NCBI RefSeq assembly: GCF_009392895.1
Contig: NZ_CP045488.1
Location: 248,001 to 312,000 of the forward strand
Direction: 5' to 3'
Length of the DNA stretch: 64,000 nt
Source of the DNA: Natronorubrum aibiense
GTDB taxonomy: Archaea; Halobacteriota; Halobacteria; Halobacteriales; Natrialbaceae
Shown here: in pieces, positions 26,835-29,976 of the stretch
Layout: each line of letters begins with the position of its first letter
Numbering within the stretch: the first letter of the stretch is position 1
Translations under genes and position numbers: made by a program
Notes under the pieces: generated by a model
The model's database searches: none
What the model saw: only the letters and a program-made list of their open reading frames with translations
What the model was told of the DNA's origin: nothing

Positions 26835-28028
26835 CTAGACGCCCTGACTCATCAGGTGGCTGCGCAACACGTCGCCCTCCTTGCTTCCCGCAGCAGTGTT
26901 GACGATGACGACCGTCTCGTCGCCGTCGAACGCGCCGCGCTCGGATAGGTCCCACACGCCGCTGGCGGTTGCTGCCGCGCTCGGCGTCAGCTCGAGACCA
27001 GTGTGTTTGGCGACCTGGACGCCGGCCTCGAGGATGTCCGGGTCCTCGGTGGCGACAGCCCCGCCGTCGGTCTCGTCGATCGCCTCGAGCACCCGCTCAC
27101 TCGCCGGCGGGTCCGGAATCTCGAGTTCGCCACAGATGGTGTCTGGCGTCTCGACCGGGTCGTGGACGTCCAGTTCGTTCTCGACGGCGTCGACGATCGG
27201 CGCACAGCCGGCCGCCTGCGCAGCGTACAGCCCCGGCAGCTTGTCGATCAGGCCGAGCGCCCGCAGCTCCGTCGCGGCCTTGTACGCGCCGACGAGGCCG
27301 ACGCCGATGCCCGTCGGGTAGGCGACCACGTCAGGGACCTCCCACTCGAGTCCCTCGACGATTTCGTACAGCGTCGTCTTCGCGCCCTCGTGGCGGTACG
27401 GCGTGACGAACGACTGGACCGAGTACCAGTCGTCGTGTTCGGCCAGTCCCTCCTCGTAGGCCCCGACGGCGTCGCCGAAGCGCCCGCCGACGACGTTCAT
27501 GTCGCCGCCGTGGACGTTGATCATGGCCTTGTTCGAAAAACTCGAGCGCGAGGGAACGTAGGTGTGGGACTCGAGGCCTGCCCGGCCGGCGTAGGCGGCC
27601 GCGGACTGCCCGCTGTTGCCCGTCGATGCGAGGACGACGTCCGTCGCGCCGTGGTGGCTGGCCGCCGTCAGCGCAAGCGACTGGCCCCGATCCGCCATCG
27701 AACCCGTCGGGTTTCGGCCGTCGTCTTTGATCAGCAGGCGCTCGACACCCAGTTCGTCAGCCAGGTCGGGACAGTCGATCAGCGCTGTTGCCCCCTCGCC
27801 GGTCGTCACTGCCGATTCGCGCGGGAACGGCAGCAGTTCCTCGTAGCGCCACTGTGAGTCGAACGGTCGCGACGCGAGCGTTTCGCGATCGAGATCGATC
27901 GCGTCGTAGTCGTAAGTCGGATCGAGCATCCCGCCGCAGTCGGGACACTGGTGCGGTTCGTCCGCGGCGTCGTAGGTCGCCTCACAGTCGACACACTCGA
28001 GGCCAACAAAGGCGTCCGTCGTCTCCAT
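26835..28028 (-). CDS. Threonine synthase-like PLP-fold protein lacking the usual Schiff-base lysine
   Basis: A 397-residue fold-type II protein. A zinc-ribbon-like N-terminus (C12, C15, C28, C31) is followed by a ThrC-like core with KDDGRNPTGSMADRG (101-115), STGNSG (135-140, phosphate loop) and YPTGIGVGLVG. In threonine synthases the NPTGSFKDRG segment carries the PLP lysine; here it reads NPTGSMADRG, so the position is Ala112. The DNA at this point is unambiguous. It could be a non-catalytic paralogue, or an enzyme using another residue. True threonine synthase activity from O-phosphohomoserine is therefore doubtful. It stands alone and is convergent with the DUF502 gene. Confidence 0.75.
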   Translation of the reverse strand: METTDAFVGLECVDCEATYDAADEPHQCPDCGGMLDPTYDYDAIDLDRETLASRPFDSQWRYEELLPFPRESAVTTGEGATALIDCPDLADELGVERLLIKDDGRNPTGSMADRGQSLALTAASHHGATDVVLASTGNSGQSAAAYAGRAGLESHTYVPSRSSFSNKAMINVHGGDMNVVGGRFGDAVGAYEEGLAEHDDWYSVQSFVTPYRHEGAKTTLYEIVEGLEWEVPDVVAYPTGIGVGLVGAYKAATELRALGLIDKLPGLYAAQAAGCAPIVDAVENELDVHDPVETPDTICGELEIPDPPASERVLEAIDETDGGAVATEDPDILEAGVQVAKHTGLELTPSAAATASGVWDLSERGAFDGDETVVIVNTAAGSKEGDVLRSHLMSQGV

Positions 28029-28158: not shown

Positions 28159-28335
28159 TCAGTTGTCGCCGGTTTTCGACTGCCACTCGTAGCTGCGGCG
28201 TTTGGCCGATTTGCCAAAGCCACACGACGAGCAGACTTTCTTCTTGGTGTGGTAAGACTTCTCTCCGCAGCGACGACACTTCGTGTGCGTCGTCTTGTTC
28301 TTCTTTCCTTGGCTCGGGGTTCCTGCGCCAGTCAT
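28159..28335 (-). CDS. rpl37e: 50S ribosomal protein L37e
   Basis: A 58-residue zinc-ribbon ribosomal protein: [20 protein letters not shown], then CRRCG and [17 protein letters not shown]. The CxxC pairs and very basic composition are diagnostic of L37e, which binds the large-subunit rRNA. Its ATG overlaps the stop of the Lsm gene by 4 nt, the arrangement known from other haloarchaea, where lsm and rpl37e are co-transcribed. Confidence 0.97.
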
Positions 28336-28559
28336 GGAGTGATCGAAACGACGTTATCGCCGCGTATAATGGTTGTGTCTTCGGCCGGCGACTCCGATTC
28401 GACTTCGTCCCCAACGGGGATCGTGACGTCCTCGAGCACGAGATTCATGTGCTGGTCGTAGCCAGCGAGGTCACCGACGTACTCGTCGCCACTCTTGAGT
28501 CGTACCGTGACACGTTCGCCAAGCGACGCCTCGAGGACGTCCAGCGGTCGTCCACTCAT
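28332..28559 (-). CDS. lsm: Sm-like archaeal protein Lsm
   Basis: A 75-residue Lsm protein. The Sm1 motif is in [27 protein letters not shown], where the DQHMNLVL segment binds uridines. The Sm2 motif is [10 protein letters not shown]. It forms a hexameric or heptameric ring that binds small RNAs. Overlap with L37e couples its translation to ribosomal protein synthesis. The internal loop is short and acidic, as is usual for haloarchaeal Lsm. Confidence 0.96.
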
Positions 28560-28971: not shown

Positions 28972-29013
28972 CCCGACCGAACGCTTTTGCGCCTGCCTCC
29001 CGTATCCGTATTC

Positions 29014-29976
29014 GTGAATCTCTATCGTAGCGCCCAGGCCGTTGCCGGGGCGTCCGGTGACGATATGATCGACTGGCAGTCGGCCGCAGACGCTGCGAAA
29101 GCAGCGACCGAACCGGGCTCGCTCGACGTGTCGCCTGCCGAGCGCGAGGCCTACGCGCGTGACGTCCGCGAGGCGCGAGCGGCGATCCGAACGGTGTCCG
29201 GTGCCGACTTCGACGTTCCCGACACCATCGAGATCCAGAACCGTCACCACTGGATCGACGCCAACATCGCGACGTTCGAACGCGTCATGGGCACCCTCGA
29301 GGAGCAGGTCCAGACGGGGATGTTCCCCGGCGTTGCCCAGACGATCAACACGGGAACGATGACGGTGTTGCTCGCGTTCCTCGGGCGAAACGTACTGGGC
29401 CAGTACGATCCCCTCTTGCTCGCCGAGACACCCGCCGACGACCACGCACTCTACTTCGTCCGGCCGAACATTCTGAACGCCGCCGACAAACTCGACGTCG
29501 ACGCCGACCGGTTCCGGCGCTGGATCGCCTTCCACGAGGTGACCCACGCTGCCGAGTTCGGGGCCGCCCCGTGGCTATCCGACCACCTCGAGACCCGCAT
29601 GGAACACGGCATCGCCGCGCTTTCTGACGGCTCGTTCGACCGACAGTCGTTCCGCGAACTCGACGCCGCGATGACCGTCGTCGAGGGCTACGCAGAACTG
29701 CTGATGGACCACGCGTTCGACGACGAGTACGCCGACCTCCGGCGCAAACTCGACCAGCGCCGACAGGGTCGTGGGCCGCTCCAGAAGCTGTTCCGACGGC
29801 TGCTCGGCCTCGGCCTGAAAGAACGACAGTACGAGCGCGGCAAGGGATTCTTCGAGGACGTCGTCAGCGCACGCGACCTCGAGACGGCGAGTCTCGTCTG
29901 GGAGCGACCCGAAAACCTTCCGACGCACGACGAACTCGACCAGCCCGGGCTGTGGCTCCGCCGTATCGAGCGCTAA
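29014..29976 (+). CDS. Zinc-dependent metalloprotease-like protein (zincin, DUF2342/TIGR03624 type)
   Basis: A 320-residue protein with the zincin motif HEVTHAAEF, in which two His and a downstream acidic residue would bind Zn, and the family segments WIDANIATFERVM, TGTMTVLLAFLGRNVLGQYDPLL and VEGYAELLMD. The group is annotated as zinc-dependent metalloprotease, sometimes as coenzyme F420 biosynthesis-associated because of its phylogenetic distribution; its substrate is unknown. The start is GTG 29014 (MNLYRSAQ); a TTG at 28987 is less likely. No signal peptide is seen, so it is cytoplasmic. Confidence 0.8.
   Translation: MNLYRSAQAVAGASGDDMIDWQSAADAAKAATEPGSLDVSPAEREAYARDVREARAAIRTVSGADFDVPDTIEIQNRHHWIDANIATFERVMGTLEEQVQTGMFPGVAQTINTGTMTVLLAFLGRNVLGQYDPLLLAETPADDHALYFVRPNILNAADKLDVDADRFRRWIAFHEVTHAAEFGAAPWLSDHLETRMEHGIAALSDGSFDRQSFRELDAAMTVVEGYAELLMDHAFDDEYADLRRKLDQRRQGRGPLQKLFRRLLGLGLKERQYERGKGFFEDVVSARDLETASLVWERPENLPTHDELDQPGLWLRRIER

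Follow-up and report, generated by a model that had tools for sequence, protein, structure and literature searches.

A threonine synthase-like gene and its missing lysine

This locus raises the question of what a protein with the fold of threonine synthase could be kept for once it has lost the lysine that forms the Schiff base with PLP. The gene lies in the window (the whole stretch of 64,000 nucleotides analysed here) and is an intact open reading frame with an ATG start and no internal stops. A sequence-only reading of this DNA had claimed that the Schiff-base Lys is replaced while the zinc-ribbon cysteines are kept, and both statements hold: codon 112 is GCG, so that the segment NPTGSFKDRG of threonine synthases reads NPTGSMADRG, and cysteines 12/15/28/31 are present. 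The features needed below are, in window coordinates:

26835..28028, reverse strand: Lys-less threonine synthase-like gene, 397 aa (open reading frame; PF00291 and NF006050 matches; AlphaFold2 pLDDT 96.6)
27684..27713, reverse strand: NPTGSMADRG motif, residues 106-115, aligned with T. thermophilus ThrC Lys61
27693-27695, reverse strand: Ala112 codon GCG, replacing the Schiff-base Lys (codon reading)
27609..27626, reverse strand: STGNSG, residues 135-140, the asparagine loop, in which Asn138 aligns with ThrC Asn87
27297..27317, reverse strand: PTGIGVG, residues 238-244, aligned with the PLP phosphate cup; Ile replaces Gly241 (all 117 Phe-Lys orthologues have TGGGVG)
27126..27128, reverse strand: Glu301 (Gly at this position in 117/117 Phe-Lys orthologues)
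27393..27395, reverse strand: Arg212, aligned with T. thermophilus ThrC Arg160 and kept in 99% of Lys-less proteins
27936..27995, reverse strand: N-terminal zinc-ribbon cysteines 12/15...28/31 (from the sequence)
28159..28335, reverse strand: rpl37e, directly upstream of the Lys-less gene, a marker of the shared locus
28332..28559, reverse strand: lsm, upstream of rpl37e, a marker of the shared locus

A divergent neighbour at 28987-29976 on the forward strand, conserved in many family loci, has an HEVTH motif and looks by eye like a zinc metallopeptidase.

The protein belongs to the PLP fold type II superfamily, scoring 195.5 bits against PF00291 (PALP; gathering cut-off 35), and it passes the curated cut-off of NCBIfam NF006050 (PRK08197, 'threonine synthase') with 317.4 against 303 bits, a score that does not demand the Schiff-base Lys. 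Its AlphaFold2 model (pLDDT 96.6, pTM 0.94) has the fold type II architecture of threonine synthases, which made up all of the top 21 Foldseek matches. An intact fold is plausible and confidently predicted, a prediction that says nothing on activity or dimer state.

In the alignment with solved threonine synthases, Ala112 falls on Lys61 of T. thermophilus ThrC, whose cofactor contacts we take to be Lys61, Asn87, Thr317 and loop 187-191. These map to residues 112, 138, 378 and 240-244 of the window protein, and this mapping revises one assignment of the sequence-only reading: STGNSG, which had been called the phosphate loop, is the asparagine loop, and the true PLP phosphate cup aligns with P238-TGIGVG-244, which is altered here. 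Where all 117 Phe-Lys orthologues have TGGGVG, the window protein thus has TGIGVG, and the loop of canonical ThrC reads PVGNAG. Since Asn138, Thr378, Gly240, Gly242 and Gly244 are still present, residual PLP binding is possible, and the window protein, in which fewer shell positions have changed, could still bind PLP non-covalently.

Recurrent loss of the lysine in haloarchaea

At an identity of about 57% or more, 124 of 125 genomes of the family (Natrialbaceae) have an orthologue. At E <= 1e-80 it is found in 286 of the 292 genomes sampled across the haloarchaeal class, and in some Haloferacaceae two copies pass this threshold. The 124 family genomes comprise 64 with Phe-Lys, 55 without Lys and 5 in which Lys has an altered neighbour; the 255 distinct haloarchaeal orthologues divide into 117 with Phe-Lys, 132 without Lys and 6 odd ones. 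The loss is wider than first proposed, being recurrent across haloarchaea with 14 kinds of replacement residue in the 132 proteins (T 37, L 31, A 26, R 9, V 9, Y 8, D 3, F 3, and M, E, G, Q, H and I one each). Within the window's own genus, 9 of 10 genomes, the window's among them, have A, T or M at position 112, and as these come from independent assemblies, a sequencing error at Ala112 is ruled out; close relatives with Lys throughout, which would have spoken against a Lys-less subfamily, are not what the search returned. The presumed Haloferax genus has an orthologue in 15/15 genomes, with Leu at position 112 in 8/8 that were read. Obligate pairing with a Lys-containing orthologue is ruled out, since many genomes have a Lys-less copy only. 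Outside haloarchaea, among the few sequences inspected, L339 has the loop YPTGGGTGL, like that of this group, and the others looked like canonical ThrC.

Several variants of the family were seen alongside. Five proteins of genus g16, the Natrinema group (L023, L025, L055, L066, L069), have Lys (TSK) but have lost Phe111 and have a degenerate loop; they are nested among Lys-less relatives, reflecting either late loss elsewhere or reversion to Lys. In many Haloferacaceae genomes a Phe-Lys copy with TGGGVG and a Lys-less copy, both orthologue-like, occur together (L232-L243, L245, L246, L249, L250, L262-L279). A few genomes have another Lys-containing paralogue, which reads NPTNTFKDRG and shares about 38-45% identity with the window protein (L131-L135, L204), and the Halomarina sister proteins L175 and L176, one with Lys and one without, have a wholly different cup (PLEGTEGL / PFEGSDGL).

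A site-heterogeneous tree (94 rows, cofactor columns removed, a quick method with SH-aLRT only) has 14 changes of the Lys state, at least 8 of them forced by starred branches; such counts alone do not tell loss from gain, and we infer loss because Lys is present in the outgroup and in every canonical ThrC. Placing all Lys-less rows in one clade is rejected (AU test, p about 1e-73), so that the Lys-less proteins do not form one ancient clade. L171 beside L160, L308 beside L284 and L320 beside L318 are clearly nested, as are the Lys-less L166/L306 inside Lys-containing Halococcaceae-type rows. The first FastTree run had given 8-10 changes and had seemed to split Lys-containing from Lys-less Natrialbaceae, a split that the site-heterogeneous tree overturned by nesting the window's clade inside the Lys-containing Natrialbaceae.

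Within the family both forms occupy the same lsm-rpl37e locus, as with L001 and L024 in one genus. The Lys-containing L024 has an identity of 0.87-0.90 to Lys-containing proteins of other genera versus 0.72-0.79 to Lys-less proteins of its own, a pattern compatible with gene exchange at the locus or with retention of the ancestral form. As a clue to function the neighbours are uninformative, as they differ between haloarchaeal families: lsm-rpl37e in Natrialbaceae, and elsewhere genes that by eye look FAD oxidoreductase-like, DtxR-like, Gdt1-like and LysE-like.

Selection on the protein and relaxation of the cofactor shell

The Lys-less gene is under strong purifying selection. In independent close pairs the median omega (Nei-Gojobori) is 0.130 for Lys-less (n=30) and 0.119 for Lys-containing copies (n=45; Mann-Whitney p 0.10), while identity to the outgroup is 0.41 for the Lys-less versus 0.50 for the Lys-containing proteins, the former being somewhat faster overall. 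A PLP-fold protein that has lost its catalytic residue is thus still under selection, and from its sequence we class it, with good confidence, as a putative pseudoenzyme.

In the Lys-less proteins the cofactor shell has changed along with the lysine. The cofactor-shell columns are the most conserved of all in the Lys-containing proteins (mean entropy 0.08 vs 0.85 over all columns), and the corresponding values are 0.88 vs 0.66 in Lys-less Natrialbaceae, 1.05 vs 1.24 in Lys-less Haloferacaceae and 1.40 vs 1.29 in the Lys-less Haloarculaceae-type, above average in two of three clades, a contrast that is descriptive, as the shell columns were picked partly after the relaxed columns had been seen. 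The nine columns that relax most in the Lys-less proteins include 112, 241, 111, 243, 216, 244 and 237. TGGGVG, complete in all 117 Phe-Lys proteins, is found in none of the Lys-less ones among the 255 distinct orthologues, and Asn at column 138 falls from 100% to 77% (weighted). Both groups retain Lys101, Asn106-Gly109, Asp113-Arg114, Arg161, Lys167, His173, Arg212, Lys217 and Glu222.

Some clades have fixed new residues in this region. Glu243 and Glu301 occur in all 45 Lys-less Haloferacaceae members, and His241 in 94% of the Lys-less Haloarculaceae-type members, where Thr135 is also fixed; by the same test Ser350 is the sole newly fixed residue of the window's clade. An acid at position 243, in the phosphate cup, would argue against PLP binding in the Haloferacaceae. 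The earlier suggestion of a PLP-binding pseudoenzyme is therefore doubtful for those members and possible for the window protein. A shifted or new catalytic Lys is ruled out, since no alignment column gains a conserved Lys in the Lys-less proteins.

What the protein may be kept for

Where a protein is kept although one residue is lost time and again, that residue is dispensable for the function being kept. We consider it likely that the window gene is a recurrently derived, maintained pseudoenzyme, descended in place from a Lys-containing ThrC paralogue and kept for a role independent of Lys chemistry. The ancestor would have been a haloarchaeal member of the NF006050/PRK08197 group, probably with two roles, one a Lys-dependent reaction and the other independent of Lys. 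The reaction would have been lost repeatedly, the folded protein no longer forming a PLP Schiff base at the usual place, and the second role would have kept the protein. With modest confidence we suggest that this role is regulatory or ligand-binding, involving a metabolite in the substrate half of the former pocket, in which Arg212 and Lys217 remain, contact with a partner enzyme, or both; canonical ThrC, being present throughout, would be the first partner to consider. A fuller version, which we put forward tentatively and at somewhat less than even chances, is that a bifunctional haloarchaeal ancestor had a conserved Lys-independent role, that its enzyme half was dropped in about eight or more independent events, and that in some clades the cofactor pocket was remade as a new site for ligands or signalling, with Glu243/Glu301 in the Haloferacaceae and with His241 in the Haloarculaceae-type.

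One could also think of a sensor or carrier that can still bind a phosphorylated or amino-acid metabolite in the substrate half of its pocket but does no chemistry on it. Arg212, Lys217, Arg161, Lys167 and Glu222, kept in nearly all Lys-less proteins, and the clade-specific fixations in the pocket are consistent with this, but these charged residues could have been conserved for structural reasons, and we regard such a role as rather doubtful. A specific regulator that pairs with or binds canonical ThrC and tunes threonine synthesis, as plant TSB-like does for TSA, seems to us less probable again. Fold and ancestry are common to the two proteins, and the host genome has the second, intact thrC that the sequence-only reading had raised: of its three other threonine synthase-like genes, L002 (GSFKDRG), L003 (GSYKDRG) and L004 (GSFKDRG), L002 is of the canonical type. 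Orthologues of L002 are present in 111/111 good family genomes and 27/27 good genomes across the order, with SFK kept in 38/38 canonical ThrCs inspected; as thrC is near-universal, this co-occurrence counts for little. There is a precedent for a fold type II pseudoenzyme acting as activator of a partner (PMC12727527), and insertion in H. volcanii thrC3 (HVO_2969), which we do not equate here with any one Haloferax paralogue, gives a Gly/Ser/Thr-requiring mutant, so that the remaining copies do not make up for its loss (PMC4300041). The Lys-less gene is, however, not co-located with thr genes, and its product is only about 35% identical to canonical ThrC.

The new acids or histidine fixed in whole clades might instead serve an enzyme with Lys-independent chemistry in a remodelled pocket. 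The newly fixed residues differ between clades, though, and the window's clade has none except Ser350. Position 112 takes 14 residues and is thus unconstrained, which also disfavours the other catalytic base once proposed there, and we hold this chemistry to be improbable. Least credible of all is a relaxed, decaying paralogue heading for loss. Lys-less members are indeed faster overall and variable at the cofactor columns, but omega is about 0.13 in close pairs, like that of Lys-containing copies, the reading frames are intact, nearly all genomes keep the orthologue and many positions are invariant; simple decay had been doubted from the outset, and these data bear that out.

Pseudoenzymes are usually viewed as the outcome of a single event after duplication; here the same catalytic Lys has been lost repeatedly at one locus, and a genus that has both Lys-containing and Lys-less members provides natural replicates for non-catalytic roles of a metabolic enzyme fold. 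It also follows that the name 'threonine synthase' is given to many haloarchaeal genes whose products cannot work as such by the known mechanism. What the fold does beyond catalysis can be tested directly in the genetic model Haloferax volcanii; its genus seems to have the Lys-less form.

Comparison with known systems

In the open-licence PMC papers searched, neither a description of such a haloarchaeal ThrC-like pseudoenzyme nor an activity test of the Lys-containing NF006050/PRK08197 group was found. The haloarchaeal orthologues of that group resemble the window protein in family locus, predicted fold and zinc ribbon, and those of its own family are 62-77% identical to it; they have the Schiff-base Lys, whereas the window protein lacks it and has an altered phosphate cup. 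Canonical ThrC (TIGR00260; solved structures 2d1f, 1uim/1v7c, 6nmx and 2c2b), a separate gene in the window's genome, has the substrate-side Arg/Lys in common with the window protein, and the fold of 2c2b is like that of our model (TM-score 0.90 by query length), but the window protein, at about 35% identity, has no equivalent of Lys61 and no GNAGN loop. The LCB1/SPTLC1 subunit of serine palmitoyltransferase likewise has a PLP fold without the catalytic Lys; it is of fold type I and forms an obligate heterodimer with the catalytic LCB2. The best mechanistic parallel would be plant TSB-like, a fold type II pseudoenzyme of a different family that activates its partner TSA and would correspond to the ThrC regulator considered above (PMC12727527). 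It too descends from a fold type II PLP enzyme and is kept as a non-catalytic paralogue, but it was inactivated by other substitutions (PMC12727527), whereas the haloarchaeal protein has lost the Lys itself, many times.
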